DNA of 64,000 nt from Bifidobacterium callitrichidarum (lineage in GTDB: Bacteria; Actinomycetota; Actinomycetes; Actinomycetales; Bifidobacteriaceae): NCBI RefSeq assembly GCF_003129905.1, contig NZ_QFFM01000007.1:1-64000 (forward strand), read 5' to 3'. A model generated the notes under the pieces. It saw only the letters and a program-made list of their open reading frames with translations. It searched no databases and was not told where the DNA came from. Below, piece after piece: positions 2,962 through 52,258 of this stretch. Made by a program: the position numbers and the translations under genes. Within the stretch, counting starts at the first letter, position 1. Every line of letters starts with the position of its first letter.

Positions 2962-3125
2962 GCGAACTGAACGTAGTCCAGCTTATTTCGCTGTTTCAGA
3001 CTACACCCCTAACCGAGAGAACGCAACAACAAACAACAAGAGTTGGTGTCTATGCTCGTTGTTCTACGTGGCCACTCAGTATTGACGAATGCTCAAAAGC
3101 TTGAGCCTTTATACATTGTTCTTTA

Positions 3126-3425
3126 TCAGTTGCGAGCTATCTTTACTTTCTTGATTGGTTGTAGGAAATGGTTGGCATCGATGTACAGATTTGTAAGTAC
3201 TGGTTTCAGATCGATGTATTCCTCTTCTGGCGCGTTGTTATGCTTGTATTTTGCATCCACGACGAGGTATCCGTTATCCCATTGCTTGACATTGGTATAC
3301 CGTTCCAATGAGTAGGGAGCGCGGAACTGAATACGAGCCTTGCCGTATTCAAACACGGTGAAGCCGTTCTCTGCACTGAGATATGCAGTATTTGCCTGCT
3401 CTGAACGGGTGCACGATGTAGCCAC
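3126..3425 (-). CDS. Small protein of unknown function (99 aa)
   Basis: I do not recognise a family. The start is GTG at 3425, preceded by AAAGGAG at good spacing. The protein has no membrane segment or signal peptide. It looks mostly beta-structured, with alternating hydrophobics in FTVFEYGKARIQFRAP and GYLVVDAKYKHN, and a basic C-terminus (PIKKVKIARN). It lies between the recombinase and the Abi_2 gene, all on the minus strand, within the invertible segment, so an accessory role in defence or in the inversion system is possible but unproven. A 220-bp gap with a hairpin separates it from the Abi_2 gene. Confidence 0.6.
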   Translation of the reverse strand: MATSCTRSEQANTAYLSAENGFTVFEYGKARIQFRAPYSLERYTNVKQWDNGYLVVDAKYKHNNAPEEEYIDLKPVLTNLYIDANHFLQPIKKVKIARN

Positions 3426-3492
3426 AGTGCGTCTCCTTTCGGCTTTACCGGGTTGATTTGTGCTGGTTTCGATTATAGGGGGATAACGCTGA

Positions 3493-4467: not shown

Positions 4468-4542
4468 GTGGAGCCTTTCGCCTCGATGCATGTATGAATA
4501 CATATAGGCATAATGTGAATCGCAGAAAACAACGATGCTGAC

Positions 4543-4568
4543 AGACAAACGGCCATTTGTTGGAGCTG
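4543..4568 (+). repeat. hsdS recombination site C
   Basis: This is the perfect inverted partner of site B over 26 bp. It marks the 5' edge of the silent hsdS cassette and lies about 75 bp upstream of the recombinase start codon, so recombination here also changes the DNA upstream of the recombinase. Confidence 0.85.
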
Positions 4569-5192
4569 TGCATTACCCGGTGGAGAAAGGCTCTTCAAAA
4601 GGGCAAATCCTCGATCTCCTTGGGAGAGATAATTCGGGTTGAAGACAGCAAACGAATTCCTCTTAGTAAGAAAGAACGTGAGAAGAGGAAAGGTAGATAT
4701 CCATATTATGGAGCGGCAAGCGTCATGGATTACGTGAGCAGCTATCTCTTTGACGATGTTCGTTTGCTCATGGGGGAAGACGGTACTGTGACTGATGCAT
4801 TCGGACATCCCTCACTTCAATACGTGTGGGGAAAATATTGGGTGAATAATCATGCGCATGTTCTTGCTGGCACGAAAGGTGTCACTACGGAGCAACTTTA
4901 TGTCGCACTATCTGATTTACGCATTACGGAATATATAACGGGAGCCGTGCAGCCCAAACTTAATCAGAAAAATATGAAGTCGATTCCTGTTGAATGGCCC
5001 GATGCAGCTCCATCATTTGACTATGAATTCCGCCTATACCGGACGAATTGCAGTCAAATATCTCTACTAACAGAATTACGTGATGCCCTGCTGCCCAAAC
5101 TGATGTCTGGCGAGCTTGATGTGTCGAGAATCGAATTGCCTACGCCGCCAACACAAATTCTGATGGGTACAAATGGCCGTTTGTCTGAGTGA
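4543..5192 (+). pseudogene. Silent hsdS C-terminal-half cassette (invertible)
   Basis: The reading frame QTNGHLLELCITRW continues through a recognition domain to the conserved tail LRDALLPKLMSGELDVSRIELP and ends TNGRLSE. This is the second half of an HsdS with no start region of its own; a stop codon lies just before site C. It sits tail to tail with the hsdS N-terminal half that follows hsdM. Inversion between sites C and D would place it in frame behind that half and give an HsdS of about 390 aa. The sequence is intact, so it is better seen as a storage cassette than as a decayed gene. Confidence 0.85.
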
Positions 5193-36057: not shown

Positions 36058-36084
36058 TTACTTGGACACGTTAAACTTGAACTC
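36058..36084 (-). repeat. Detached ychF 3' end, copy 2 (left attachment site)
   Basis: The minus strand reads EFKFNVSK-TAA. The core at 36068-36084 differs from the intact ychF copy by one base. It is 104 bp upstream of the integrase start and is the likely left end of the 15-kb element. Confidence 0.82.
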
Positions 36085-36154
36085 TTTGTGATTATTAGTT
36101 TTTATGTAGATTTTCCTACTATTCCAACACTTTGCTAAGATTGATGCAATGACC

Positions 36155-36174
36155 TTTGACAACAAAATGTCAAA
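36155..36174. promoter_or_regulatory. TTTGACA dyad upstream of the integrase gene
   Basis: TTTGACA-N6-TGTCAAA lies just before the integrase ribosome-binding site. The same motif recurs near the right attachment site, so it may be an integrase arm site, an autoregulatory operator, or both. Confidence 0.5.
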
Positions 36175-36187
36175 ATGAAGGAGCAGC

Positions 36188-38188
36188 ATGACGAGCGGCA
36201 AGAAACCTGTTAGGAAGAATCGCAAGGCAATCTCGATACTGAATGGCCGTGCCTCCATGACTGCGCCTACCGCCGCATCACCATACTGGAGACCTCGATG
36301 GCGCGATCCGAAAACGGGGAAAATGCGGACTACGAACTGCACGACTCAGGACGCAGCCATCGAGGCAGCCCGCAGGGGGCTCGGCGATGTCACGCAGACA
36401 CGGGCAAACATCCAACCTCCAACGTTTGAAGAGATGTTCTACGAAATGTCCACCGTGAAAGGAAGCAACTGGTCAGACGGCACTCGAGCGGGAATGATTT
36501 CCCTGTATAAGAAGCATCTTGCGCCGGTGCTTGGCAGCAAACCAGTGACACGTATCACGCAATCGGACATTCGCGACATCACGTTACCTACGTTGAACAA
36601 CGAGCGTCAGCGTAAGATTAAGAGCCTTATCAAAGGAACTATGGCACAAGCTGAACGGTGGACCGGAAACGATGCAACATTTTATTCTTCACAACTCATA
36701 ATCACGGGGAAAGCATACAAGGGCCGCACCAAGCCCGTTGACGAGCGCGACATTCCCAGTGGTAAATACATTGCCGACATCATCACTGCCGCGTACAGCA
36801 CCATGAGCATTACGCCACTGGATGATGCAATGCCCGGACAGCGTAGAGGGAAATCAACCCTTATAGACCCTATGACGGGGAAAAAGACCAGCAGCGCACG
36901 AGAGGTTACGCGCATGTTCAATGAGTCACCTGACGCCTTCGATGGCATCATGGACATTACCCCGCTTGACGCTCGTATTCGTTTGGGCCTCCCTGTCGAT
37001 GAGGAAGATGCTCAAACACGATCGGCAAACATGCCGAAAAAACAGACGAAGCACATTCCCGTGTATGCCGGTGACATCCGACGCAGCATACCAAGGCACC
37101 TACATCATCAGAATGAACGCAAAGCAGCAGAGGTGGTAGCTTGTGGCGAACGCTTTCGACTCATCGGCCTTGCGTTTGCTTTGAGTGCAGCCGGCGGTCT
37201 CCGCGTAGGGGAAATGCTACCGCTGCGTGTCAGGCATTTCCTGACCCGCGAACAGGCAGCGCGCATGTTCGTTTCCAGCCTCGCCATTCATAACGATACT
37301 CGAACTGTTACTATCGAGGGCAAGGCGGTTCCCGCCAGCACCGATGTCTACGCCGTTCGTCGGAGCCAAAGCAAGACAGGGACGTTTCCCGTCTGGGACA
37401 GCCGTGCGGATTACAACGGGCGGATCAGCATCGAAGAACAGATAACACAGGCGGGAACGAAGTACCTTATTCAGCCGCCGAAAATGGGTATCGGCAGAGA
37501 ACGTGTAGCGCACTTGCCGTATTTCCTTCCTAATTGGGAATACATAGCAAATCGAACGCACGTCAGCCAGCGCGAGGCAATTGGCAACATCGTCGCACGT
37601 TTCAAGCAGCAGCCGGAGTCACAGAACAACGTGTCATTCTGGACATGCACTGACGAAGAAGCCGGCCTGCTGTGGACCAAGGGGTATGTGCCTATAGGAT
37701 GGATGCTTCTCGAACGTTTCCGCGAACTGTGGAACTCGCCAGCCCTCGCCGACATACCGCCGAATAAGCGTATAGACGAGTTCCGTGAAATGCTCCTATT
37801 CCCGGCACGTTCCAATCCACGTATGACCAAGGACGGTCTGCCGGCCATACGCCCCATACCTGGATGGACGAACAACACCGCCATAGTGCCTGGTACCTGC
37901 GGATACATGACCGAAGCTAACTTTGTTGAAAGAAGTCTCAATCCGATTTTTGATTACGTATCCGCCAACACTGGTGAATACCCGCTTCACCGTAAAAACT
38001 CAATACACAACAGAAAAGGCTGGACCTATCATGGGTTACGTCATTTCGCGGCATCCAGCCGCATACAAGCAGGCGTGCCCATTCCACAGGTAGCGGCGGA
38101 GCTCGGGCATAAGAACGCTTCGTTTACTCTTGATCGTTATGCGCATATGGTCAAGGAAGCCATACCTCCAACTGGATTTGAGTACTGA
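36188..38188 (+). CDS. Tyrosine-type site-specific integrase of the element
   Basis: The 666-aa protein is a tyrosine recombinase with catalytic residues Arg339 (GGLRVGEM), His615-x-x-Arg618 (HGLRHF), His641 (LGHKN) and Tyr651 (DRYAHM). An arm/core-binding N-terminal region with WRDPKTGKMRTTNCTTQDAA resembles phage-type integrases. It is about 250 residues longer than usual because of large inserts, including a long one between Arg339 and His615. The ATG follows AAGGAGCAGC. Its position beside ychF-tail copy 2 implies that it recombines at the 3' end of ychF. Confidence 0.9.
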   Translation: MTSGKKPVRKNRKAISILNGRASMTAPTAASPYWRPRWRDPKTGKMRTTNCTTQDAAIEAARRGLGDVTQTRANIQPPTFEEMFYEMSTVKGSNWSDGTRAGMISLYKKHLAPVLGSKPVTRITQSDIRDITLPTLNNERQRKIKSLIKGTMAQAERWTGNDATFYSSQLIITGKAYKGRTKPVDERDIPSGKYIADIITAAYSTMSITPLDDAMPGQRRGKSTLIDPMTGKKTSSAREVTRMFNESPDAFDGIMDITPLDARIRLGLPVDEEDAQTRSANMPKKQTKHIPVYAGDIRRSIPRHLHHQNERKAAEVVACGERFRLIGLAFALSAAGGLRVGEMLPLRVRHFLTREQAARMFVSSLAIHNDTRTVTIEGKAVPASTDVYAVRRSQSKTGTFPVWDSRADYNGRISIEEQITQAGTKYLIQPPKMGIGRERVAHLPYFLPNWEYIANRTHVSQREAIGNIVARFKQQPESQNNVSFWTCTDEEAGLLWTKGYVPIGWMLLERFRELWNSPALADIPPNKRIDEFREMLLFPARSNPRMTKDGLPAIRPIPGWTNNTAIVPGTCGYMTEANFVERSLNPIFDYVSANTGEYPLHRKNSIHNRKGWTYHGLRHFAASSRIQAGVPIPQVAAELGHKNASFTLDRYAHMVKEAIPPTGFEY

Positions 38189-38222
38189 CAAACAGTAACC
38201 ATACATTCCCAGTCGCCATTGA

Positions 38223-38284
38223 ACCTTAAGCACAACGTGCACGCATATTTATCCAAGAAAACGCGAACAAGTTGTGCTTAAGGT
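38223..38284. repeat. 14-bp inverted repeat after the integrase gene
   Basis: ACCTTAAGCACAAC (38223-38236) and GTTGTGCTTAAGGT (38271-38284) are perfect inverted repeats with a 34-nt spacer, between the convergent ends of the integrase gene and a small gene. There is no T-run; it may still act as a bidirectional terminator or as a protein-binding site. Confidence 0.5.
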
Positions 38285-38296
38285 ATACGTCTCGCA

Positions 38297-38485
38297 TTAT
38301 TTTTTTCTCAGCGGATGTGGTTTCGTGATGTCGATACCGGCCGATGCATAAACGGAGATGATTTGCGCTTCATTGAGTTCGCTCATCCGATGATGTGCCA
38401 ATATGCACTTGTTGGGATTGACGCAGAACTCGGCTTCTTCGGGGCTGACGATATGGATTATCGCGGGGTCTTTGACGCTTGGCAT
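38297..38485 (-). CDS. Small protein of unknown function (62 aa)
   Basis: No family is recognised. The ATG at 38485 follows GGAGCAGCC at good spacing, and the composition is protein-like (PAIIHIVSPEEAEFCVNPNKCILAHHR), with a Cys pair 7 residues apart. It is transcribed opposite to the integrase and the replication genes. It could be a small regulator of the element; this is a guess. Confidence 0.5.
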   Translation of the reverse strand: MPSVKDPAIIHIVSPEEAEFCVNPNKCILAHHRMSELNEAQIISVYASAGIDITKPHPLRKK

Positions 38486-38958
38486 GGCTGCTCCTTTCCG
38501 GAGAAATGTTGTCAAGGACATATCGTCGAAAAAAAGAAAAAGTCGCTCGCGCTTTTGCCCCGCCGCCGCGCTTCATTACTGCCGCATCGCCTACCGGCAT
38601 TTCGGCGGGGTCGTTCTCCCGGTCCAGCGTGCTCTAAGCGTATGCGGCGACAAAGAGCTGGCCCATATATCTCAGACCACGACGGCTCTCCAATGAAATG
38701 ACCATGCCCCGACGCCGGAAGTGTACTACCTGCTTTTCTGCCGTTCTTATTGTCTTTCTGACGGCGGTTATGCGTGATTTGCTCACCGACGTGGTTATGG
38801 CGATAATCCCGTTCCACCGGCGTTATCGACGTCAGGCGGTTTCCGGCCTCATCGAACGCGGTATCTAATGCGCGTTCTGCGATATTGACTGGCAAGTCGT
38901 CATACATCGTATCTGACGACTTCATACCATCATCCGTACTTAGGGGAAGGACACCGAA
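38486..38958. other. Region with at most a doubtful small gene
   Basis: A minus-strand frame (ATG 38925 to 38512, 137 aa) starts with a plausible stretch (PVNIAERALDTAFDEAGNRL) but becomes Arg-rich and ends in a Phe run, with a weak GGATG ribosome-binding site. It may be a decayed or short real gene. Otherwise the region holds an A-rich tract near 38530 and no clear repeat. Confidence 0.35.
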
Positions 38959-39903
38959 ATGACCAGCACCTTGCGCCCAACCAAAGGCGATCGGAGGACA
39001 TTGGAAGCATTGGTGAGGTTCCGTTGCCTTAGCATTCTGAGTGCCGTCCGGTTTTCCGGACTTGCGTTGTCAAGTCGCTATAGGGTCAGCCGTCGTCTTC
39101 GCGCCTATGCGGAACGCGGTTATGTGCGCGTCATCACCGGCCCGAGTGCGCACGTCGTGTTCACGCCGACGCCCAAACTGATTCCGTTGTTGGGATTGGA
39201 AACACCGCCGTTGAGAGCTACAGATGCTTCGGCACACGCGCTGGCAGTATCGAGCATCGCATCACAACTGGCACATGGCGATAACGTGCTGCGTTTGCCC
39301 GTCGATGAATGGGAAAACATTCGCGTGCAGATGGAGGATTATGAAGCAGGTCTGGTTTGTGAAGCAGACCTGCGCATGGCCGAAAGCCGGCTACGCCAGT
39401 CTGGTAAACGAGACCAGGCCGTGGCGCAGATGTTGCATCTGATGGATACGCAACGTGATGATGTCGCATACAGGGCATGGGCTGGAGGGAATCCATATCA
39501 ATCGTGGCCGTGGATTGTCATGGCACACGGCGAGGCATGGAGCATGCGCGAGCAACGCATGGTCAGTAACGTGTATGCCGAATCAGACAGCGCTGTTATC
39601 TCACTGACCGACCATCGACCCGACTTGGTTCTTGCCCGACCATTCCATCAATCCATCGCCATCGAGGTCGAGCTGACGCGCAAACCCGTGAACGATTACA
39701 TCGCCACGATGGCCGGATACTCCACTCGGCAGAGCCGCGACGCTTACGCACTGGTCGTTTGGATTGCGACCAACGAGGCTATCGCTCATGCGATTCGTCG
39801 TGGTATCGCGGCGACCGGCACCGAACAGCTGGCACATGTTGTGATGGCCGATTCCAACGGTGGACCGTTGTGGGGCGGCGTCGATTTGACGACCAGAGTA
39901 TGA
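38959..39903 (+). CDS. Replication-relaxation family protein
   Basis: The 314-aa protein has an N-terminal winged-helix-like region (FRCLSILSAVRFSGLALSSRYRVSRRLRAYAERGYV) and a C-terminal part with HRPDLVLAR then IAIEVELTRKPVNDYIATMAGY, the pattern of the replication-relaxation family of actinobacterial and firmicute mobile elements, which resembles a PD-(D/E)XK core. Such proteins are encoded beside mobile-element replication or transfer genes. The ATG follows GGGGAAGGA. It lies upstream of the helicase-Rep gene on the same strand. Confidence 0.75.
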   Translation: MTSTLRPTKGDRRTLEALVRFRCLSILSAVRFSGLALSSRYRVSRRLRAYAERGYVRVITGPSAHVVFTPTPKLIPLLGLETPPLRATDASAHALAVSSIASQLAHGDNVLRLPVDEWENIRVQMEDYEAGLVCEADLRMAESRLRQSGKRDQAVAQMLHLMDTQRDDVAYRAWAGGNPYQSWPWIVMAHGEAWSMREQRMVSNVYAESDSAVISLTDHRPDLVLARPFHQSIAIEVELTRKPVNDYIATMAGYSTRQSRDAYALVVWIATNEAIAHAIRRGIAATGTEQLAHVVMADSNGGPLWGGVDLTTRV

Positions 39904-40013
39904 CGGATGTGCAAACACATTCCGACGGTATCATCCGGCATGGCATGCATCACTTTGTACGTGCCGCGGCAATAGCAGCCGGAACAGGACTCTCTATATT
40001 CCCTTAAAACCAA

Positions 40014-40048
40014 ACGTCGGCCGCCACCATAATGGCATCGGCCGACGT
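40014..40048. promoter_or_regulatory. Hairpin upstream of the helicase-Rep gene (candidate origin or terminator)
   Basis: ACGTCGGCCG (40014-40023) pairs perfectly with CGGCCGACGT (40039-40048) around a 15-nt loop that itself contains a partial CCA...TGG dyad. It lies about 65 bp upstream of the Rep gene start, a common place for a rolling-circle nick site, but no pC194-type nick sequence is seen. Confidence 0.4.
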
Positions 40049-40111
40049 AAGAGCAACTGACGATAACACGGGCTTCCCTCCCGCGGAACTGAAACATGGA
40101 GGTGTTTCGTA

Positions 40112-43012
40112 ATGTCCTCAACAGCAATATCTACCGCGCAACGGCTCACACTCGCCAAAGATGAGCGTCAACTTGAACGCGCGCATCGTAATAGCGTTTT
40201 GCAAAAGCGAATCCATGACGGCGAACTGGAAATGTCCCGCTGGCAGCTGCTGGCAGCGAGGAACACAGACCATCTATTGCGCATCGTCGCGTCGGCCGGA
40301 GCCGGTAAGACCCGGACACTCGCCAACGCAATCGCGGCCGCAGCCACGCTTCACGACGCGAAACACATCGCCGTTATCACGTTCACTCGCAAGGCGACGC
40401 GCGTCATCGATGGTGCACTCACACGCAATGGCGTGTACGGCGCCAGCGTGAGCACACTCGATTCACTCGCTCTGCGGATACTAAAAGCTGCTGGCATACA
40501 TATCAACGCTATCACCGACGCTGACAAGAGAGCAATCCTCACCGATATCCGAAAAACCTGCATGGAAGAACAGCCGCACGAACGCATCACGCTGAAACAA
40601 ATGATGCATGACACGACGTATTATGCCATGCATCCTGACGAACAGCCCGAATCCGAATACCTCAAAGCCATCCTGAAGGAATATACCAAACAATGCAAGG
40701 ATATTTACAGCGCCGAATGGCCGACCATCGAGTTACTCGCCGCGCAGCACTACCCAAAATCTGGCCTCCAGTTTGAGATACTAGGCGTGGATGAAGCCCA
40801 GGACCTTAATCCTACGCAAATACAACTGGTAGAAAGCATCACCGCCACGACGATGCAGACCATCATCGCCGGTGATTGGCGGCAAGGCATCATGACCTTT
40901 CAAGGTGCGACGCCCGACTGGTTTCGTGACGGCACAAACTTCGACCAGACATTAGAGCTTCCTATCAATCACCGATGCGCACCGAAAATAGTCAATGTCG
41001 CAAATCGCATCTTCGGGGACCACATCAAGGCCTCCAGTAATGCCACGACCGGCATGGTACCACAGCTGATACGAGCGAACAATGAACAGGACGAAGCAGA
41101 AAAAATCGCCGACATTATTGAAGGCCTGTTGTCCGATGGGCATACTGCGGCGAGCAACATCAAGTTCCTTGCGTGGCGTCGCAGCCAGTTCCGAGAACTG
41201 AAACGAACGCTTGCAGAACGCGGCATGCCAATAAACGAGGATGCCTTCCGCACCATCCATTCATACAAAGGTGATGAGGCAAACATCGTCGTTCTGGTGG
41301 GCGTGAGTCGAGCCGTATGGGGCGATCGCAGCGATGAAGCGGACATGTTGCTATATGTGGGAATGACACGAGCGAGACTGGGGCTCATCATCTCCTATCC
41401 CGACCAAACGATTCTCCCCGGCGGCCGCACTTCCACAGTCTACGGCCCATATCTCACACTTGAAGACTGCGCCTTGCAAGAGTCATCCGATTCAGAGACG
41501 ATTCTCGGCAAGCTCCACCGCGACATCAGTAGTCGTCACCTGTTGGAAGATGTCATCGAGGACAACAGGACCGCACAGAACATCGCCATCCAGAAAAAGC
41601 AGCAGAGTCGTGTCGTCGCGAGCTACCAACGCCTAGGCAACGTAAAGGTGGCAGCGAAGCTGACGGATTGCGCGGATAAGCTAACGTTCGAGACCATGAC
41701 CGACGGAAGTGTTCGACGCAGCCTGTTGGCGCACGCATGGTTCTGCAACCAGAAGACCTGCAATATTTGTATGGGAAGACGGGCCGTGCGCAACCAACTG
41801 CGCGTTGGCGCGGCACTCGATTGTTTGTTTAACCCCAAATGCTACCAGGATTTACTGCCTGATGAACTGTATGAGCGTATTGCCAGGATGCGGTTTGCGA
41901 CACCTGCCTTCTTCACGGCGACTATGCCCAACTTCGATGACCTTGCGCTCGGTATCCGCGTGCTCAATCTCGCCGTCCGTAAGCTCACTCACACGAATAC
42001 CGGCCGTATTATGAGCGAACGCGAACGAGTGTTCACGCAAGGCATCGTCGGCACCACGCGCAGCGACGAAGCGACCAATCGGTACATCAACGCAGGACTG
42101 CACGAACTGGAATACCAGCTACAGCAACACGAATCTATGCACGACTTGACCGACACACAACTAAATGAACTTCGCCAGAAGATAACCGACATTCGGGCGG
42201 GCGGCGAATGGCACGTACACGCCCACATGATTTTCGCGACGTTGGGAACCTATTACCATGACCAGCTTCATAGCAACGACATTAAGAATGGACACGACTA
42301 CAAAGGTGACATCGTAGAGGCCAATCACTTATACAAAGACCGTCTGTGGTGGAAGTTGGAGTGGACCAGCGCCGTCCAGAAAGCCGTGAACTCCGTCATC
42401 AGGCAGGACCGGGCAAAAGGGATAGCACACGATGATTTCCAGACTGGCCGTTGGAAACGGTTTCTGAGCATGCGCCGCACCGATGTGGAACAAACCATTG
42501 AGCAAGCCCAGGCTCAAGTTGAACAATGCGAGCCGGGTACAGTCGCCTATGATGCCGCTCGGGAAGCTGAAAAGCAGGCTTGGGCCAACGGAGCGGTAAT
42601 TGATATCGAAGCTATCAGCATCAAGGGAAAAAATATGACGTCGGAACAAAAAAGGAAACTTAACAGGCATCCCGAACTGCTGAAATCCGCTATACAAGAA
42701 ACCTGCAAATATGCCTTCAAGCCGGATGAACTTTTCGTAAAAACCAGCAAGGACGAGCTCGACCAAATCCTGCCACAAATAGACGCCACATCAGGCGCGC
42801 GTCTCATCTCTCGCACCGGCATCATCGCTCAAGTGCTTCAAGATGCTGATGAGCGACGGCTCTGCGATCGTTACTTGCAACGTGCGCGAACCGGTAACGT
42901 GGACTGGACGCTGGAGCAGTCCGTCACATTCAATTGGCTGACCGACCTCCGCCAATATGTTCAATACGAAACCGTTAACGCGGATGACGGCGAAGCCGAT
43001 TTTCGGTCATAA
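40112..43012 (+). CDS. SF1 (UvrD-like) helicase fused to a Rep_1/HUH rolling-circle initiator
   Basis: The 966-aa protein has two parts. Residues 1-440 form a UvrD/Rep-type SF1A helicase: Walker A ASAGAGKTRT (about 60-69), DEAQD (228-231), INHRCAP, HSYKGDEANIVVL and YVGMTRAR. Residues about 520-960 match Rep_1 (pC194/pUB110 type) initiators: a Cys-rich start (HAWFCNQKTCNICMGRRA), FFTATMP, the metal-binding HVHAH (His701, 703, 705) and the catalytic ETCKY motif (Glu863, Tyr867; the same E-x-x-K-Y spacing as in pC194 RepA). It would nick an origin and unwind DNA in one polypeptide. The ATG follows GGAGGTG. I know of no described protein with this pairing and order. Confidence 0.82.
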   Translation: MSSTAISTAQRLTLAKDERQLERAHRNSVLQKRIHDGELEMSRWQLLAARNTDHLLRIVASAGAGKTRTLANAIAAAATLHDAKHIAVITFTRKATRVIDGALTRNGVYGASVSTLDSLALRILKAAGIHINAITDADKRAILTDIRKTCMEEQPHERITLKQMMHDTTYYAMHPDEQPESEYLKAILKEYTKQCKDIYSAEWPTIELLAAQHYPKSGLQFEILGVDEAQDLNPTQIQLVESITATTMQTIIAGDWRQGIMTFQGATPDWFRDGTNFDQTLELPINHRCAPKIVNVANRIFGDHIKASSNATTGMVPQLIRANNEQDEAEKIADIIEGLLSDGHTAASNIKFLAWRRSQFRELKRTLAERGMPINEDAFRTIHSYKGDEANIVVLVGVSRAVWGDRSDEADMLLYVGMTRARLGLIISYPDQTILPGGRTSTVYGPYLTLEDCALQESSDSETILGKLHRDISSRHLLEDVIEDNRTAQNIAIQKKQQSRVVASYQRLGNVKVAAKLTDCADKLTFETMTDGSVRRSLLAHAWFCNQKTCNICMGRRAVRNQLRVGAALDCLFNPKCYQDLLPDELYERIARMRFATPAFFTATMPNFDDLALGIRVLNLAVRKLTHTNTGRIMSERERVFTQGIVGTTRSDEATNRYINAGLHELEYQLQQHESMHDLTDTQLNELRQKITDIRAGGEWHVHAHMIFATLGTYYHDQLHSNDIKNGHDYKGDIVEANHLYKDRLWWKLEWTSAVQKAVNSVIRQDRAKGIAHDDFQTGRWKRFLSMRRTDVEQTIEQAQAQVEQCEPGTVAYDAAREAEKQAWANGAVIDIEAISIKGKNMTSEQKRKLNRHPELLKSAIQETCKYAFKPDELFVKTSKDELDQILPQIDATSGARLISRTGIIAQVLQDADERRLCDRYLQRARTGNVDWTLEQSVTFNWLTDLRQYVQYETVNADDGEADFRS

Positions 43013-43016
43013 TCTC

Positions 43017-43081
43017 AACTGGCACGTAGTGGTGGGGCCCCCGAACAATCAGTTCGGCGGCCCCACCACTACGTGCCAGTT
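43017..43081. terminator. 65-nt near-perfect hairpin after the helicase-Rep gene
   Basis: Arms of 23 nt (43017-43039 and 43059-43081) pair perfectly, followed by one C-C mismatch and six more pairs (CCGAAC/GTTCGG) around a 5-nt AATCA loop. It starts 4 bp after the stop codon and is followed by GTTTCTATAT. It could be a terminator, or a single-strand or double-strand origin of the rolling-circle element. Confidence 0.65.
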
Positions 43082-43181
43082 GTTTCTATATAACAATCAA
43101 TACAGCCGTTGCCAGCTGTTTGGCTTGTATGAACGAGAAGAAGTCGCATGAACGTTCCGACGATCGCGGCCTGACAGGCAG

Positions 43182-43739
43182 TCATTGCCGCCTCAATACA
43201 GGCGGCAGGAACCGTTCGGCTTCGCCTTCGTTGAAGGTCTGCTCTTCTTCTTTCTTTAACGCATGTTGCGCTTCCTGATACGCTTTCTCAGATGTTCGCG
43301 GCGTCGTTGCGTAGATGTTCGCTACGGTCTTAGTCAAGTTGTCACGCTTCTCACGAATCTCGTCATCCCTCAGCTCGTTAAAATCTGTAAGTAGTGCCTC
43401 ATATTCCTCACGTACTATCCATAGGCGATCGGCCGCCTTCTGATGTTCCTCAGCTTTCGCCGCCGGATTAAAATTCTTTGTTGCGGCATTTACAATCACG
43501 AGAGCAACGGCAAAAACCGCCCCAATAGCTTTAGCCCATGTAGGGAATACAGTCACCAAAAAACCACCCGCAGTTATTGCTGAGAGGATGAGTTGGCACC
43601 ACCGGAGTCTACGGTCTTCCGCCCTTAACCGGTGCGCGTCTTTTTCATGCGCGGTGAATGTGTACACCACTTTTCCGTACCGCGTTACCAGCTCAGACCG
43701 AAGCCGCTCACGATAATCTGGCTTTAAATTGGTCACCAT
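43182..43739 (-). CDS. SLATT-domain two-transmembrane protein (CBASS-type effector)
   Basis: The 185-aa protein has a basic N-terminus, two adjacent membrane segments (about 50-67 and 70-88) and a long charged C-terminal helix region (EEHQKAADRLWIVREEYEALLTDFNELRDDEI), the layout of SLATT proteins. These pair with CD-NTases and are predicted to form membrane pores when the nucleotide signal is made, killing the infected cell. ATG 43739 (GGAAG upstream) overlaps the end of the nucleotidyltransferase gene by 32 bp, so the two are coupled; ATG 43757 is an alternative. Confidence 0.82.
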   Translation of the reverse strand: MVTNLKPDYRERLRSELVTRYGKVVYTFTAHEKDAHRLRAEDRRLRWCQLILSAITAGGFLVTVFPTWAKAIGAVFAVALVIVNAATKNFNPAAKAEEHQKAADRLWIVREEYEALLTDFNELRDDEIREKRDNLTKTVANIYATTPRTSEKAYQEAQHALKKEEEQTFNEGEAERFLPPVLRRQ

Positions 43740-44604
43740 ATATAGACTTCCATTCATCTTCTGCTAATGAATCAATACCAAGGTCTACGTCATATTGAGC
43801 CTCTTTAGCATGCTCATATGCAATATTTGCTTTTGCTGTAACATCTACGGAAAAGTCTATAGTTGAAAGACTTCCCGGAGCAAATAAGCTGGAATCGTTG
43901 CCATGTTTTACAAGGTACGCGAAGAAATCGCGAGTCATCTCCCCATATTTGGAATAGTTTTTGTACTTTTCAATTGGTACATCATTAAGCAAGAAAAAGT
44001 CATAAGCTAACGCATCGATTGCGATGCCGGAAATGTTGACATTATTGGCATTTCTCCATGCACGAAGCATGCGACATAAATCTTTGGGCGAATGCTCATA
44101 GTATGATGAAAGACTATTCAGCGCATTGATTTCATCCTTGGGATTTGTTACTTGCCATGAACCTCCGTTATGTGTGTCCGGGTAGTAATATGCATTACCA
44201 GAATCTTGGGAGAATGCAGGAACAATCTCGAAGCGAATTCCATCAGACCATTCAATAACGATAACTTGTCCATCACCTCGTAAATGCGAGTTTGAATATT
44301 TAGTTTGTATTACAGTCTTTACTTCTTGTAATAAAGCAGATTGACCATTACTGGCATAATGGTTATAACGATGGAATGTTTCAGGCGGCAGTTCTACTAG
44401 AATATCGATGTCACTGGTCGAGATTTCAGTCCCTCTGCCATAAGAACCGACGTATAAACCATGGAGCGACTCACTGGAAATGTCCCAGTAAAAAATATTT
44501 ATCAGCTTGACAATGCTATGGTATCTCAAACTAATGGTATCTGTTATATCTTCATCCATGAGTAAGGATGAACAAAAGCCTTGAAATGTGGAACTTACTC
44601 CCAT
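43708..44604 (-). CDS. CD-NTase (SMODS-type nucleotidyltransferase), CBASS signal synthase
   Basis: The 298-aa protein is a cGAS/DncV-like nucleotidyltransferase: GSYGRGT at 53-59, the metal-binding Asp65-x-Asp67 in TSDIDILVE and the third acidic residue Glu126 in IRFEIVPAF. Such enzymes make cyclic oligonucleotides on phage infection. The SLATT gene follows at once; the pair matches a minimal (type I) CBASS. ATG 44604 is preceded by GAGAAAA. Base composition is clearly AT-richer than its neighbours, a sign of separate origin. It is 48 bp behind the type III res gene on the same strand. Confidence 0.87.
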   Translation of the reverse strand: MGVSSTFQGFCSSLLMDEDITDTISLRYHSIVKLINIFYWDISSESLHGLYVGSYGRGTEISTSDIDILVELPPETFHRYNHYASNGQSALLQEVKTVIQTKYSNSHLRGDGQVIVIEWSDGIRFEIVPAFSQDSGNAYYYPDTHNGGSWQVTNPKDEINALNSLSSYYEHSPKDLCRMLRAWRNANNVNISGIAIDALAYDFFLLNDVPIEKYKNYSKYGEMTRDFFAYLVKHGNDSSLFAPGSLSTIDFSVDVTAKANIAYEHAKEAQYDVDLGIDSLAEDEWKSIYGDQFKARLS

Positions 44605-44652
44605 TTTTCTCTTTCTCGCGCTCGTTGCATTAGATGATGGTTTTCCATCGAT

Positions 44653-47334
44653 TTACAAGTGGTTCAGGAAGTCGGTCTTGAACGTGGCAAACGAATATGC
44701 GCCATCAATGTCCATCGGGCTATTACCAAACACCATGAAATACTGATAGTTTGGTCCGGCATCGCTGGCCCACTGGTTTCCGAGTCTGAGTTTGTCACGG
44801 CTGTCGTCATTCTTCAGCTGTTCCCCCTTGGTTTCGATGACGAACAAGCGACCGCCGCGTGTCATCGCCAAAAAGTCCGGGTAGTGGTTGATGAATCCGT
44901 TGATGTAGAACTCGCCCTTGCGCCGTTCCACAACGCGATGCCACCAGATGATACCTTCGCAGTTGGCCAAAGCGTCAGCCATCTGAAGTTCCAGCTCGTT
45001 CATACCACCGTCTTCAGCTTCGTACAGCGTGCGATCGAGCGTAGTCAATGGATTGGGAAGGTACGCCGAGGATGGGAATGCGTAATCAGGCGTAATGGTG
45101 ATGTCGCCACGACGGCGCTCCACATCGAACTCCCTAACGCGGAATGCATCTGCCTTGTCCTTGATTGCATGACTGATTATGGCCGCATAAGCGGATGCGT
45201 TGTCCACGTATCCTTCAAGTTCATCATCACTCATTTGGTCCACAACGCGGTTAATAAATGATTTCAAGCCGTGCGCGCCGTACAGTTTCTGCACTTGCGG
45301 GCTCATGAGGTTGGGCAGGTCCAGTTTGGCGCTCCGGCGACGGCCTTCGTTGCTGTCGCGCGCGAAAAGCTCCTTCATGCCTCGACGCTGTACATCAGAT
45401 AGATTACGAACTTTGAGCTCGGAATCACTCGAGATGTCGATTTGCTTGGCGTCAGCAACATGCATAGCATCCAGTCTGATGTCTTCCGTGCCGATTTTGG
45501 CAAGCATGAAATGCTCAAGCAGGGAGTCGCGATCGAATAGTTCACCTTCAGCGTCATCCAAGTCTGAGAACAGACCGGCTTGCCGTTCGAGGCGATAACG
45601 GGGAATCCTTAGATTACGTACGGTGTCGGCCACCGTATCCCTTATGCGGAACGTGTTCATATCGTCTCCCATTCCAGTAGTGCCGCCGGCAAGGGTTTCC
45701 GCGTCATCCTTAGCGCTCTTCGCGCATTCGGCTTCGGCGGCTTCGGATGTACGAATCATTGCGTCAATGGAGACATGGCGAGTGTCCGGGACTTCCTGCG
45801 AAGACTCCGGCAGCTTCGCATTTTCATCCGGCAGGGAAATCGCCAAGTCATTGAAATCGTCAGGCTCGTCTTCGGAGCCTGTCTCGTCTTCAGTGCCCTG
45901 ATGCTGCATCAACTCGTCAATTAGCCCCTGGACAGGCACCGGACCCGATGCGACACCTTCGGCTGTATCCGTCGTATCCGCCAACACGTCGCGCTTGGAG
46001 AAGCCGGCTCCATTGAGTCCGGCCACCACCTGGTCTATCGTCGCGTTGAAATCAGCGGACGAGGTCAGCACATATGACGTGTTCAATGCGCCCGACTTGG
46101 CATGCTGCGCATACGGCTGGCGCAGCACGCGGCCGACAAGCTGTTCAACGCTGGTACGCGATGTTTTATTGGCGACCGTGGCGAGCACGTAGGCAAATGG
46201 GCAATCCCAGCCTTCCGAGAGCGCTTCGACGGTTATCACGTAGCGAATCGGACATCCGCGTGCCTGGAGGTCCGTGCCTCCCAGTTCGTCCACGTCACCG
46301 GTGCGGATGGCGATATGCTCTTCGGGAATGCCTGCATCCACAAGCTTTTCCTTGAGTTTGCGGAATGTCGCAGCATTATCCGCGCCTTTGCGTTCCGCCT
46401 GAAGCAAGGCTATTGGGCGGATGTGATGCCCGGTCTTCTCCTCATTGATCGCGGCGATTTGCTCCAATCGCCTGCGCAGCATGATGGCATCCTGGATGGT
46501 TTCGGTCTTGCCGTCCCTGCGGTAGACGATGACCGGCAGCTTCACCATTTCCTCTGCCTTGAGCTCCTGTGCGGATACTCGTGCGATGACGTTGGATTTG
46601 TTGGATGGGGTGGCAGTCAACTCCAAAATGAAACAGGGATTCAAGTTGCGCAGCATCTCAATGGACAGGTTGGACTTCGCGTGGTGGGATTCATCCACCA
46701 CGACAATCGGATGCATGCCCGCCAGTGCAGTGATGAGAGCCGTATCATCAGCCCCATCGACTTCCACTGCATCGCCTTGGGATTTCTGATAATTGGTCAA
46801 TGCGACCAATGACGAATTCTCTGCATACGCACGTCGTCCATCCTTGTTCTTGAATGAATCATAGGAGAGTACGAAAACCGTCAACTGGTCTTCCACTGCC
46901 GGGCCATTGAGGCCACGTCCGGCAAGGCCATCCTCTTTATCAAGCACTTCGACGCGATGGGAGAAATCGCGGTCTATCGCCATACGCAGCGGATGCGACG
47001 GGTCACGCAACTGGCGAAGCGTCTGACGAAGAATCTCATTGCGTGGCACCAGCCACACCACCGCCCGCGTCTTCACGTCGAGCTCTTCGGTCAGCACATG
47101 CAGCGCGTTCGCCGCGATATAGGTCTTGCCGCCGCCTGTAGGCACCTTCACACAGACCTTCGGCGCACCGTTTACATCATCGACATACCATCTGATGTCA
47201 CCATGGCCGGAAAACAGCCCGTCCTGTGCAAGCAGCTGGTCGTAGGCGGCGGCACCAGTGCCGAGCGCCACGGTCAAACGCGCATACTCGCGGATGGTAT
47301 TGAGGACTTTACGCTGGTATTTCTTCAATTCCAT
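44653..47334 (-). CDS. Type III restriction endonuclease subunit Res
   Basis: The 893-aa protein has an SF2 helicase core (PTGGGKTYIAA near residue 70, VVDESHHAK, ELTATPSNK, SEGWDCPFAYVLATV, VGRVLRQPYA) and a C-terminal nuclease (YPDFLAMTRGG, then FVIETKGEQ: PD...E-x-K). With Mod it cuts DNA having unmodified sites. An acidic Ser/Glu-rich linker lies near 470-550. I start at ATG 47334, with GAGGG at good spacing, 5 bp after the mod stop; GTG 47343 is possible. It is transcribed in series with mod and the CBASS-like genes. Confidence 0.93.
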   Translation of the reverse strand: MELKKYQRKVLNTIREYARLTVALGTGAAAYDQLLAQDGLFSGHGDIRWYVDDVNGAPKVCVKVPTGGGKTYIAANALHVLTEELDVKTRAVVWLVPRNEILRQTLRQLRDPSHPLRMAIDRDFSHRVEVLDKEDGLAGRGLNGPAVEDQLTVFVLSYDSFKNKDGRRAYAENSSLVALTNYQKSQGDAVEVDGADDTALITALAGMHPIVVVDESHHAKSNLSIEMLRNLNPCFILELTATPSNKSNVIARVSAQELKAEEMVKLPVIVYRRDGKTETIQDAIMLRRRLEQIAAINEEKTGHHIRPIALLQAERKGADNAATFRKLKEKLVDAGIPEEHIAIRTGDVDELGGTDLQARGCPIRYVITVEALSEGWDCPFAYVLATVANKTSRTSVEQLVGRVLRQPYAQHAKSGALNTSYVLTSSADFNATIDQVVAGLNGAGFSKRDVLADTTDTAEGVASGPVPVQGLIDELMQHQGTEDETGSEDEPDDFNDLAISLPDENAKLPESSQEVPDTRHVSIDAMIRTSEAAEAECAKSAKDDAETLAGGTTGMGDDMNTFRIRDTVADTVRNLRIPRYRLERQAGLFSDLDDAEGELFDRDSLLEHFMLAKIGTEDIRLDAMHVADAKQIDISSDSELKVRNLSDVQRRGMKELFARDSNEGRRRSAKLDLPNLMSPQVQKLYGAHGLKSFINRVVDQMSDDELEGYVDNASAYAAIISHAIKDKADAFRVREFDVERRRGDITITPDYAFPSSAYLPNPLTTLDRTLYEAEDGGMNELELQMADALANCEGIIWWHRVVERRKGEFYINGFINHYPDFLAMTRGGRLFVIETKGEQLKNDDSRDKLRLGNQWASDAGPNYQYFMVFGNSPMDIDGAYSFATFKTDFLNHL

Positions 47335-47339
47335 ACTAA

Positions 47340-49271
47340 TCACACCCTCGCAATCTGACGGGGAATCTGCTTAAAGACGATATTCAGGGCGTCAAGCCGG
47401 TCCTGCGGCAGTACGCATCGATCGGCATAGATGACGGTGGTCGAGCCACGACGCGGCAACGTGCGCAGCAGGTCATAGCCGAGCACGCTTTCATCTGCAC
47501 CGTCGTAGGCAAGGTAATACACGGTGTCCGCCAACTCTCCGAGTAGATACGGGTGCTCATCGGTCAGGTTCTGGTATTCAGCCTTGGTTTCCGTGTACCA
47601 GACGTAGTGGAACAGCTCCTGACGCGGCACCTTGGGATTGAGCATTCCGTCCGGTTCAAACAGTACCGGACCGAGTTCGTAGTAGGAGAAGCCGGAATCG
47701 ATGCCTGGTACTGTCTCTCCCTTGCTGGTCTCGCCAATTACGGTAAGTGTGTTGTCTATCAGCCTGGGATTGCCGACTTTGTCGTATTCGCCGGCTTCAA
47801 TGGCCTGCTGTTGAGCGGCTTTCGCCTCTTCTATGTATTTCGCTGCGTTCTTCAGATTCGCTGCCGTCAGCTTCTTCTCATATACGGTCCGGGCGAATTT
47901 GGCCGACGTCTCGAACCCTTGTATGATTTTGCGGGCGCGTTCGGCGGTGATGTGATCGGCATAATCGCACATCTCCACAAGGATGAATCGCCGGTGTCCG
48001 CCATCGGCCTTGTTCGCTTCAAGCACGGCTTGGGCGGTGGTGCCGGAGCCGGCAAACGAGTCAAGGACGATGGAGTCCTTCGATGTGGCGATGTCGATGA
48101 TGCGGCGAATCAGGCGGGTCGGCTTCGGTGTGTCGAACGCTGCACGCCCTTCGAACATGGCCTTGATCTCCTTGGACGCCTCATCGGTGTGACCGACCTC
48201 AGCATAGGGCCACAGGTTGGTGACGAGACGACCGCCGACGCTGTCGAGATAGGTCTTGCGGGCGATGCCGCCCTGACCGTTTCTGGTGAAGAAGAATCGA
48301 GGCCACGGGCCGCGTTCCAGTACGATGGCGGACTTCTTCTTGGATTCCTCCATTGATTCCTTCAGCATGATAGCCGGCACGTCGGGTCGAACATCGTCTG
48401 TCGCCACGCCGCATACATGGGCGCGCTTCTCCTCATCGTGAAGATTGCGCAGCTCGTAGGGGCACCAGCCGTTCATGATGTCAAGCATCACATCCTGCTG
48501 GTAGCGCCAGCAGGACCCGTTTGCGGGATACAGCAGCTCACCTGTGAACGGGTGCTGTATGGCGTACACCATTCCCTGATGCGTTGCTGCGCCGGGAGCG
48601 AATGCGTTATCCGTACGCCATGCGGATGCATCGCCATCGGGGTTCCCGTATTTGGCGTTCATCTCGGCGGTGCGTTCCAGCTTGTTGGGGTTCCAGTCGG
48701 GGTATCGGCTGTAGACGAGGATGTGCTCGACCTCGTTGACGATGCCTTTGGAATCGTTTCGGGTCGAGTAGGTGCGCTGCCATGCGATGTTCGACACGAA
48801 GCAGCTGCGGCCGAAAATCTCGTCGCATACGCTCTTGAGGACGGCCTCCTCGTTGTCGTCGATGCTGATGAAGATGACGCCAGTGTTGCTCAGCAGCAGG
48901 CGCAGCATCTGGAGACGCGGGTACATCATGCACAGCCATTTGTCATGCCGCGAGAAGTCTTCGCCTTCCTTGCCGACGACCTCGCCCAGCCAGCGGCGGA
49001 TGCGCGGGTCGTTGACGTTGTCGTTGTACACCCAGCCCTCGTTGCCTGTGTTGTACGGCGGATCGATGTAGATGCAATCGACCTTACCCTCGTACTCGGG
49101 CAACAACGATTTCAACGCCTCCAGATTATCGCCGTGGATGACCTTGTTGCCATGATCGGTGCCATCAGAGGCAAGCACGCCCTTGTCTGGGACCTGGTCA
49201 AGTACACGGTACGGAACCTGGCGATGGTATCCGATGACCTTATCCTTGCCCATCCATTCCAGTGCCGGCAT
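47340..49271 (-). CDS. Type III DNA methyltransferase subunit Mod
   Basis: The 643-aa protein is a beta-class adenine methyltransferase: the catalytic motif DPPYNTG at residues 70-76 and the AdoMet motif DSFAGSGTTAQAVLE near 420, with a long recognition region between. It acts alone as a methylase and gives sequence specificity to Res. The ATG at 49271 follows AAAGGA. It is the first gene of a minus-strand run mod-res-CD-NTase-SLATT. No simple sequence repeat of the kind used for mod phase variation is seen. Confidence 0.94.
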   Translation of the reverse strand: MPALEWMGKDKVIGYHRQVPYRVLDQVPDKGVLASDGTDHGNKVIHGDNLEALKSLLPEYEGKVDCIYIDPPYNTGNEGWVYNDNVNDPRIRRWLGEVVGKEGEDFSRHDKWLCMMYPRLQMLRLLLSNTGVIFISIDDNEEAVLKSVCDEIFGRSCFVSNIAWQRTYSTRNDSKGIVNEVEHILVYSRYPDWNPNKLERTAEMNAKYGNPDGDASAWRTDNAFAPGAATHQGMVYAIQHPFTGELLYPANGSCWRYQQDVMLDIMNGWCPYELRNLHDEEKRAHVCGVATDDVRPDVPAIMLKESMEESKKKSAIVLERGPWPRFFFTRNGQGGIARKTYLDSVGGRLVTNLWPYAEVGHTDEASKEIKAMFEGRAAFDTPKPTRLIRRIIDIATSKDSIVLDSFAGSGTTAQAVLEANKADGGHRRFILVEMCDYADHITAERARKIIQGFETSAKFARTVYEKKLTAANLKNAAKYIEEAKAAQQQAIEAGEYDKVGNPRLIDNTLTVIGETSKGETVPGIDSGFSYYELGPVLFEPDGMLNPKVPRQELFHYVWYTETKAEYQNLTDEHPYLLGELADTVYYLAYDGADESVLGYDLLRTLPRRGSTTVIYADRCVLPQDRLDALNIVFKQIPRQIARV

Positions 49272-49439
49272 GCTGCATTCCTTTCCCAGCGTTACTTGAC
49301 AGCACTATTGTCTCATGCGTATGGCCCATCTGCGGACTCGCCGCACATATCGCGCATCATCACCTTCTGCACATCTGTTACGGTTAAACTGTCGCGGCAG
49401 TCGATACTGACTGTGTTTAAGGTGAGACTTGGAGCGCCC

Positions 49440-51008
49440 ATGAAGATGTTCTTTCCGAAACTTGGTCTGGATATGGCCTTTCCCCACAGGGACAAAGGGC
49501 AGCAGTCTTTAATTCGTGGACGGCATCGTGTGTCCACCACAGCGGCGACTCTTCCGTCAGGCAAGACGGCACGACTTGTGCTGATGTGGATAAGTACCAG
49601 TCTCATTCAGCAGGATGGATGCGTTGATGCCAGAACAGGACGTATAAGTCGTTCTGGCTTGCGGGAGTTTATGGCCCGGGCGGGCGTTAGCGTTGGCGGT
49701 CGGCAATACGATCGCGTAGAACGCCAGCTCTCATTACTGCTTAGCTGCCGATACTCCGAACACGACGGCCAGCGTTGGCGGTCGTTATCAGTCTCACGTC
49801 AAAACAAGCAGGGAGAAGTCGTGTTGACGCGACAGTTCATGCATCGCCTGGCCCATGTCATTAGCGTGGATTCCTCGATAGTACGGCAACTGCGGTCATC
49901 CATGTCTGTAGACCTGTACCTTATCGCACGGCGACAGCCTGCCGGAGCATCTGTTAGTTATGACGACTTGTACGCCATAACTGGTAATGGTGGGCGCAAT
50001 CGTTTCAGGCAGACGGTAACCGCAGCGGCCCAAGAGCTTGAAAAGACAACAATCGGTGCTATCCGTATAGCCGCTAATGGCTTTACCGTGTTAAACGACC
50101 TCACTCCGGTGCAAGACACTGAGATGGAATGGGACGATTCGTTACCCGCACGCTGTCTCTGGCATCACGAAAATGGGCTGCGGCTATACCTGGGGGATGC
50201 AAAAGCAGTTATGAGCGAATTCCCCGCGCGAAGCATTGATTGCGTTGTCACGTCCCCGCCCTATTTCAATCAGCGAAACTACAGCGGTGGCCGTAGGGAA
50301 ATAGGCCGCGAGGATACGAGCGACGCATATATTAAGAATCTCGTCGGCGTATTCCATGAGGTAAAGCGCATACTGGCGGATGACGGTACTCTGTGGCTGA
50401 ATATTGATGATTGCTATTCGACAGGAGATGCACGCGACCCCGCTCCTGCGCACTCTCTGATGGGACTTCCTTGGCGGATGGCTCTCGCTATGATGCAGGA
50501 TGGATGGCTGTTGCGTAACGAAGTCATCTGGCATAAAACACGAGTGCTTCCCGGCGCGTCAGGCAATCGATTGAACCATAATCATGAACAGATTTTCCTG
50601 TTCACCAAGACCGCTGAGAACGTTTACAACATAGATGATGTGCGCGTTCCTTTGACCGACGTTTCCAAGAAGAGACTCCAGTACACTAATCTTGCCGGTT
50701 CCGATCGCGGCAGCGGCGGAACCAAAACCATCAAAGCGGTCGGCGACATTGAAGTCGGTCGGAATCTAAGAGATGTCTGGCCAATATGTCCGGCTTATTC
50801 GCATGATGCTCATTTTGCCGTCTTCCCAATAGAAATACCCGAACGATGCATCAGGGCGGGATGCAAACGTAATGGCGTCGTGCTGGACCCATTCAGCGGA
50901 AGCGGCACAACCGGACTCGCAGCGCGATCGCTTGGCCGTAAGTACGTGGGCATTGACCTCAATGAGGATTACCTAATGCAATCAAAGCGAAAGATAGTGG
51001 GCAACTGA
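49440..51008 (+). CDS. RepA-like initiator domain fused to a DNA methyltransferase
   Basis: The 522-aa protein has two parts. Residues about 20-220 resemble plasmid RepA (RPA-type winged-helix initiator): LPSGKTARLVLMWISTSLIQ, SGLREFMARAGVSVGGRQYD, VDLYLIARRQ, VSYDDLYAITG and RFRQTVTAAAQELEK. Residues about 235-522 are a beta-class methyltransferase with TSPPY at 271-275 (SPPY is common in N4-cytosine enzymes) and DPFSGSGTTGLAARSLGRKY at 483-502. The ATG 49440 has GGAG five bases upstream; the frame is open further upstream but overlaps mod antisense. It is divergent from mod and the last gene before ychF. It may mark the element's origin or protect it from restriction; this is inference. Confidence 0.78.
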   Translation: MKMFFPKLGLDMAFPHRDKGQQSLIRGRHRVSTTAATLPSGKTARLVLMWISTSLIQQDGCVDARTGRISRSGLREFMARAGVSVGGRQYDRVERQLSLLLSCRYSEHDGQRWRSLSVSRQNKQGEVVLTRQFMHRLAHVISVDSSIVRQLRSSMSVDLYLIARRQPAGASVSYDDLYAITGNGGRNRFRQTVTAAAQELEKTTIGAIRIAANGFTVLNDLTPVQDTEMEWDDSLPARCLWHHENGLRLYLGDAKAVMSEFPARSIDCVVTSPPYFNQRNYSGGRREIGREDTSDAYIKNLVGVFHEVKRILADDGTLWLNIDDCYSTGDARDPAPAHSLMGLPWRMALAMMQDGWLLRNEVIWHKTRVLPGASGNRLNHNHEQIFLFTKTAENVYNIDDVRVPLTDVSKKRLQYTNLAGSDRGSGGTKTIKAVGDIEVGRNLRDVWPICPAYSHDAHFAVFPIEIPERCIRAGCKRNGVVLDPFSGSGTTGLAARSLGRKYVGIDLNEDYLMQSKRKIVGN

Positions 51009-51033
51009 CCAGAACCCATACGATAGGCCAACA

Positions 51034-51075
51034 AGATGGGGCGGCATCGAACGTGGATTCGATGCCGCCCCATCT
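51034..51075. terminator. 18-bp-stem bidirectional hairpin
   Basis: AGATGGGGCGGCATCGAA pairs perfectly with 51058-51075 around the 6-nt loop CGTGGA, between the convergent methyltransferase and ychF genes. There is no T-run on either side. Confidence 0.6.
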
Positions 51076-51083
51076 ATGTCCGG

Positions 51084-51144
51084 CTTGTCAAAACTTGTAC
51101 AAAAACATGCCGACACGCCGTGGTTTTTGACAAATTTTGACAAG
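51084..51144. repeat. TTTTGACAA repeat cluster near the right attachment site
   Basis: CTTGTCAAAA (51084-51093) is inverted relative to TTTTGACAAG (51135-51144), and TTTTGACAA also occurs at 51125-51133. The TTTGACA core matches the dyad at 36155-36174 beside the other end of the element. Confidence 0.55.
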
Positions 51145-51163
51145 CGAAAATCGTTGGAATTAC

Positions 51164-52258
<1,095 letters not shown>

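Follow-up and report, generated by a model that had tools for sequence, protein, structure and literature searches.

We describe here an unusual gene within a 64,000-nucleotide stretch of Bifidobacterium callitrichidarum DNA (positions 1 to 64,000 of contig NZ_QFFM01000007.1, forward strand; hereafter the window). The gene (40112-43012, + strand) lies within an integrative element of 15.1 kb (36074-~51179) whose insertion site is the 3' end of the chromosomal gene ychF, and encodes a protein in which a helicase of superfamily 1A (SF1A, UvrD/PcrA-type) precedes a nickase of the Rep_1 (pC194-type, HUH) family. We consider that this fusion protein is the rolling-circle replication initiator of the element and contains an SF1A helicase of its own, and assign this reading a probability of about 0.7.

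The open reading frame (ORF) is uninterrupted, with no internal stop. Pfam models matched the protein at residues 45-271 (UvrD-helicase; 7.8e-26, 91.8 bits against a cut-off of 23), 282-375 (UvrD_C; 1.2e-14), 381-427 (UvrD_C_2; 1.2e-6) and 828-949 (Rep_1; 5.7e-9, 36.2 bits against a cut-off of 33.2); the Rep_1 score was 37.9 bits when the C-terminal half alone was searched, and 26.4 bits, i.e., under the cut-off, for one stretch in a six-frame scan of the DNA. An earlier note, made from the sequence without database searches, had proposed an N-terminal helicase and a C-terminal Rep_1 domain in a single protein, and the matches over cut-off within one frame of 966 amino acids (aa) bear this out. 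The motifs it quoted, i.e., GAGKT (Walker A, 63-67), DEAQD (227-231) and MTRAR (418-422) in the helicase half and HVHAH and ETCKY in the nickase half, stand at the residues it gave and are invariant in four species; the helicase half also contains GDWRQ (254-258), R288 and TIHSYKG (381-387).

The Pfam alignment to Rep_1 covers the last third of the protein only, and the assignment was therefore examined by independent tests. A hidden Markov model (HMM) prepared from five Bacillota plasmid Reps (those of pPS1, pLTK2, pCD034-1, pTA1040 and one Lactococcus plasmid) matched the fusion with 57.8 bits (1.8e-16), where other actinobacterial Rep_1 proteins reached 37.6 bits at best; with the C-terminal half alone it scored 54.5 bits, compared with a best score of 5.7 among 200 shuffled sequences. 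Profile-profile comparison of the fusion with the Bacillota Reps aligned residues 494-917 (probability 98.3, E 1.1e-14). A tblastn search of plasmids with residues 431-966 recovered the "protein rep" genes of small Bacillota rolling-circle replication (RCR) plasmids (best E 5e-6) through a stretch other than that aligned by Pfam, about residues 470-665. In a joint alignment the Cys motif, FFTATMPN, HVHAH and ETCKY fell on the family's Cys motif, FLTLT, HUH and E-x-x-K-Y, respectively, the Cys motif (545/550/553) being exact and the FxTxT motif (FFTATMPN, 600-607) degenerate; neither of these two had been given in the earlier note. The nickase region, with all four family motifs, spans residues ~490-920. 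The nickase half joined the Bacillota plasmid Reps in a tree (support 97/95), apart from the other actinobacterial Rep_1 proteins (100/98); no relative of the Rep_1 profile was found in the PDB by sequence. A significant Rep_1 match, which the earlier note expected of a profile search, was thus obtained by Pfam, by HMM and by profile-profile comparison, and on these alignments the nickase half is assigned to the Rep_1 (pC194-type) family.

The helicase half was aligned with PcrA (1pjr) by phmmer: residues 42-374 of the fusion correspond to PcrA 13-378 and residues 379-432 to PcrA 561-622, such that the ~180 residues forming the 2B subdomain of PcrA (378-561) shrink to about five (374-379) in the fusion. 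Similarly, residues 329-539 of the Rep helicase correspond to fusion residues 334-367, and the NCBIfam equivalogs for PcrA, Rep and UvrD matched only under their full-length cut-offs. By these alignments the helicase half is an SF1A helicase lacking the 2B subdomain. In Rep and UvrD this subdomain is autoinhibitory; one may speculate that its loss would leave the tethered helicase constitutively active. In a helicase tree the branches of the fused helicases were too long to place, and no close relative was seen among the bifidobacterial SF1 helicases.

Both parts occur together, a point that the earlier note had raised, at full length in Bifidobacterium ramosum (100% protein identity), B. scaligerum and B. 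colobi (85%) and B. catulorum (83%), and the same uninterrupted frame is present in five independently assembled genomes. Among the four species compared, no catalytic residue varies (HUH, E863, K866 and Y867 included), and the ratio of nonsynonymous to synonymous substitution (dN/dS) was 0.09-0.12 for the helicase half and 0.10-0.16 for the nickase half. Both halves are under purifying selection, and in view of the intact copies in other species and a dN/dS of ~0.1 in both halves the gene is neither an artefact nor decaying. A sixth genome (G069) encodes a divergent protein of 1367 aa (953-5056 of a 7.3-kb contig) with the same domain order (UvrD_C, 1.5e-18; UvrD-helicase, 2.3e-12; Rep_1, 6.8e-12, 45.8 bits); its Rep half is only ~22% identical to that of the window, and here too the catalytic residues of HUH and E-x-x-K-Y match. 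The nickase halves of the two fusion types were not monophyletic in the best tree, and a single clade was marginally rejected (approximately unbiased test, p-AU 0.0447, with long branches), so that the helicase-Rep_1 fusion may have arisen twice in the Bifidobacteriaceae. Lipoprotein-like ORFs lie downstream of the 1367-aa gene; its contig showed no terminal overlap of the kind a circular plasmid would give, and no similar plasmid was found, so that it may belong to a plasmid or to an element.

Records of 72,556 plasmids and 50,697 phages yielded separate helicases or short Reps only and no fusion, nor were relatives of it present among 2.9 million viral contigs; small "Bacteriophage sp." scaffolds with UvrD matches contained no Rep domain. 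Another contig (G054; 7.4 kb, C17) has a 127-bp terminal overlap and is probably a circular Rep_1 plasmid, one of its ORFs having an FtsK/TraB-like ATP-binding motif.

The gene resides on DNA that has moved, as the earlier note had supposed: an integrase, att repeats, empty sites in other genomes and a recent transfer all attest to this. The flanking direct repeat is exact over 11 bp in the window, 18 bp in B. ramosum and 17 bp in B. catulorum. At the left end a duplicate of the ychF 3' end (GAGTTCAAGTTTAACGTGTCCAAGTAA compared with GAGTTCAAGTTCAACGTCTCAAAGTAA) is followed by the hairpin GGGCCTTGGAATC...GATTCCAAGGCCC, and in several bifidobacteria with an empty site such a terminator hairpin stands directly behind ychF, which indicates that the element came to lie between ychF and its terminator while restoring the end of the gene; the native ychF terminator now lies 15 kb from its gene. 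The window and the B. ramosum copy are identical from 36074 to 51202 save for five bases in ~15 kb, whereas the rest of ychF differs by 9.6%; the element was hence transferred very recently between B. callitrichidarum and B. ramosum. Related elements in B. scaligerum (18.1 kb, with a 19-bp repeat) and B. colobi are inserted at tRNA-Ser(GGA), have another integrase and other cargo (DUF499/HEPN), and share with the window only 38304-43143. The MobC-like gene upstream of the fusion gene, the fusion gene itself and the non-coding DNA flanking them therefore make up the mobile backbone, which by sequence comparison is common to elements that differ in integrase, insertion site and cargo.

How the fusion might act can be proposed by analogy with the families of its two halves. 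Excision by the integrase would yield a circular form of the element, on which the C-terminal HUH domain would bind a double-strand origin, probably near its own gene; Y867 would nick one strand and become covalently linked to the 5' end. With both activities in one chain the helicase would reach the nick by tethering and, held there, would unwind the DNA while host DNA polymerase extended the 3' end, and E863 together with Y867 would end the round. In pC194 a round is terminated by the Glu and Tyr of the catalytic motif. Nicking, covalent linkage, unwinding and replication of the excised circle are each attributed to the fusion from its families. The earlier note went further and called the protein a self-sufficient replisome starter; the domain identities, their order and the mobile element held up, but self-sufficiency goes beyond the evidence, as polymerase, single-stranded DNA-binding protein and primase would still have to come from the host. 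Independence from host PcrA/UvrD is itself speculative. We suggest, tentatively and at somewhat less than even odds, that the fusion represents an undescribed class of initiator in which a 2B-less SF1A helicase tethered before a Rep_1 nickase frees the element from the need for a compatible PcrA/UvrD and widens its host range.

Several observations weigh against a role as replication initiator. Motif 1 reads FFTATM in place of FLTLT, and long insertions separate the motifs of the Rep half. AlphaFold gave no usable model of a HUH fold, the mean pLDDT (predicted local distance difference test) being 35 for the C-terminal half and 33 for the full protein with only four close sequences as input. 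The sequence TCTTGATA, which we take to be the pC194-like nick sequence, is not in the element; the candidates for an origin are the hairpins and the conserved block in the Table only. No free-circle copy was seen among the copies found, and the architecture was encountered in the Bifidobacteriaceae only, with none in the 395 genomes of the class and 396 of the phylum sampled outside the family.

Among the alternatives, the one that survives best has the fusion acting mainly as a mobilisation relaxase that nicks an origin of transfer (oriT) for a helper conjugative element, replication of the excised element being secondary or absent. The partner encoded upstream resembles MobC/replication-relaxation proteins; the element crossed species recently; and most streptococcal integrative mobilisable elements (IMEs) use initiator-type relaxases, Rep_2 + RNA_helicase proteins included (PMC5704250, PMC5357655). 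The present element has the features of an IME (an integrase, flanking direct repeats, and empty sites elsewhere), and its candidates for a relaxase are the Rep_1 fusion and the weak MobC-like match only. Yet its ORFs included nothing recognisable as a coupling protein or as any other transfer gene, and we regard a principally mobilising function as rather unlikely. The two functions may coexist: since Rep_1 initiators can serve mobilisation (Rep_1 proteins can act in both maintenance and mobilisation; PMC5704250), and a helper conjugative element could mobilise the DNA from the same nick, it is plausible that the replication initiator is also the element's relaxase.

The altered motif 1 and the spread of the motifs by long insertions could mean instead that the Rep half is degenerate, having lost its catalytic activity and kept only DNA binding, and that the protein only loads or positions the helicase. 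This is improbable, given the invariance of HUH, E863, K866 and Y867, their match in the 1367-aa protein, and a dN/dS of ~0.13 in the Rep half. We place still less weight on a defence helicase-nuclease attacking phage DNA. Such a role could be read from the GajB (Gabija) models, which in PADLOC match the helicase half best (1.7e-39), and from a cargo that includes genes resembling CBASS (cyclic oligonucleotide-based antiphage signalling system) and type III restriction-modification genes; but generic SF1A helicases have no background model in PADLOC and the fusion matches PcrA and Rep too, the nuclease half belongs with the plasmid Rep_1 proteins and is not a GajA partner (there is no GajA among the element's genes searched), and it is on genomic context that we reject this explanation, the fusion gene sitting beside the MobC-like gene in a backbone shared by elements with differing cargo. 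Two genes joined by an assembly or frame error, a suspicion that nothing beyond the unusual architecture would raise, are refuted by the same open frame in five independently assembled genomes.

Coordinates of the fusion gene, of candidate cis elements and of the other features of the element are collected in the Table.

Table. Features of the integrative element and its insertion site (positions in the window)
Feature	Position	Strand	Basis or remark
attL core AACTTGAACTC	36074..36084		in displaced second copy of ychF 3' end (reverse complement encodes ...EFKFNVSK, then stop); displaced ychF terminator hairpin outward
tyrosine recombinase / integrase, 666 aa	36188..38188	+	PF00589 7.5e-10; phrog_1 integrase 3e-18
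small divergent ORF, 62 aa; start of conserved backbone	38297..38485	-	sequence; inter-element similarity begins 38304
non-coding conserved block, candidate regulatory or origin region	38519..38735		24-28/30 columns invariant in four species
MobC/replication-relaxation-like protein, 314 aa	38959..39903	+	NF041423 3.1e-6, 26.7 bits vs cut-off 200 (weak)
hairpin just 5' of fusion gene, 10-bp outer stem, candidate double-strand origin hairpin	40014..40048		flanked by invariant blocks
fusion gene (helicase + Rep_1 nickase)	40112..43012	+	966 aa; SF1A helicase N-terminal, Rep_1 HUH nickase C-terminal
helicase half, residues 1-430	40112..41401	+	UvrD/PcrA-type SF1A; 2B subdomain absent by alignment
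linker + Rep_1 half, residues 431-966	41402..43009	+	profile and tblastn matches
C-x4-C-x2-C motif (C545, C550, C553)	41744..41770	+	joint alignment with Rep_1 family
HUH motif HVHAH, residues 701-705	42212..42226	+	sequence and alignment
catalytic motif ETCKY (E863, Y867), residues 863-867	42698..42712	+	E-x-x-K-Y spacing as in pC194-type Reps
functional hairpin (a terminator or another kind), 24-bp stem, 3' of fusion gene	43016..43082		compensatory changes
SLATT_4 effector with two transmembrane segments (2TM) (cargo)	43182..43757	-	PF18186 2.3e-53; PADLOC Effector/2TM 5.3e-61
SMODS (CD-NTase) oligonucleotide cyclase (cargo)	43708..44604	-	PF18144 5.3e-41; PADLOC Cyclase 2.8e-103
type III restriction enzyme Res (cargo)	44653..47343	-	ResIII 1.8e-19; PADLOC REase_III 5.4e-78
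type III methyltransferase Mod (cargo)	47340..49271	-	PADLOC MTase_III 3.1e-172
second N6/N4 DNA methyltransferase (cargo)	49383..51008	+	PF01555 3.6e-53
attR core	51180..51190		within ychF 3' end; exact repeat of attL core
ychF, chromosomal target gene	51164..52258	-	Pfam PF06071 2.6e-38

The non-coding block is conserved above gene level, and indels break every reading frame across it; it was also considered as a structured RNA or DNA, and this was rejected, the block folding no better than shuffled sequences and having no Rfam match. For the hairpin just 5' of the fusion gene 90% of alignment cells were paired, with one compensatory pair (weak); for the hairpin 3' of the gene 94.7% were paired, with five compensatory pairs (1 of 500 shuffles scored as high), and a terminator is its simplest reading. 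The MobC-like gene always stands directly upstream of the fusion gene: homologues 89-100% identical precede the fusion in B. ramosum, B. scaligerum and B. colobi, and the ORF is present in B. catulorum too; its product had no Pfam match even at E 10. Longer relatives of this protein (680-750 aa) are encoded at other bifidobacterial loci (L119 1763-3817, L120 7368-9419, L121 8847-11084), one of them at the end of a contig bearing ychF (G047), and its sequence HRPDLVLAR..IAIEVELT resembles a PD-(D/E)XK-type pattern.

The defence cargo (43182-51008) consists of a CBASS-like SMODS-SLATT pair, type III restriction-modification and an extra methyltransferase, and stands in the same order in B. catulorum. 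The listed ORF for the extra methyltransferase (48417-51008, +) overlaps Mod, on the opposite strand, by 855 bases, the actual start probably lying close to 49383. In B. scaligerum (L042 16587-19973) and B. colobi (L043 62-6439) the backbone is accompanied by a HEPN_Swt1/DUF499 protein and very large neighbours, possibly another defence system.

No earlier description of such a protein was found in the open-access papers searched, and the pairing of helicase and Rep_1 in this order is apparently undescribed, in line with the view taken in the earlier note. The Rep of pT181 loads host PcrA, and pC194 needs UvrD in E. coli; Rep-mediated activation of PcrA is thought to limit the host range of RCR plasmids (PMC5703833). 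Filamentous phages CTXphi and Pf likewise need host UvrD, according to the titles of PMC4439123 and PMC4863604. The natural fusion makes the idea of a PcrA/UvrD host-range limit directly testable, and the element may need less host help than the related plasmids, which borrow a host helicase. The protein is also a ready construct for studying the handover of DNA from a nickase to an SF1A helicase, and bifidobacterial vectors might be built on it.

The nearest relatives of the nickase half by HMM and tree, the pC194/pUB110-type Rep_1 (PF01446) initiators of pPS1, pLTK2, pCD034-1 and pTA1040, have the same four motifs in the same order. Reps of this type are stand-alone proteins of about 320-340 aa and rely on a helicase from the host, which for pC194 in E. 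coli is UvrD (PMC5703833), whereas the present protein carries a helicase ahead of its nickase and has its motifs spread by insertions; small stand-alone size, in which the 966-aa fusion differs, is a typical rather than a catalytic feature of Rep_1. The UvrD, PcrA and Rep helicases have all SF1A motifs in common with the fusion, which is without 2B and is joined to a nickase. GajB, which gave the best PADLOC match, has solved chains of 493-499 aa, and Gabija is without a Rep domain. In TraI-type relaxases and in the Reps of CRESS-DNA (circular Rep-encoding single-stranded DNA) viruses HUH comes first, followed by an SF1B (RecD-like) or SF3 helicase, and RNA_helicase (PF00910) is an SF3-type helicase. 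The Rep_2 + RNA_helicase proteins (PF01719 + PF00910) of streptococcal IMEs also place an initiator-type HUH nickase and a helicase on an integrative element (PMC5357655), but the nickase is of another family and the helicase is other than the SF1A type of the fusion. Helitron RepHel has HUH and helicase in one chain, but with HUH first and a Pif1 helicase (PMC6213432). In evolutionary terms the present protein is thus an HUH fusion that puts the helicase first, opposite to the order in Helitrons, relaxases and CRESS-DNA viruses, and none of the fusions compared (Rep_2/RNA_helicase proteins, Helitrons, relaxases, CRESS Reps) pairs Rep_1 with an SF1A helicase or puts the helicase first.

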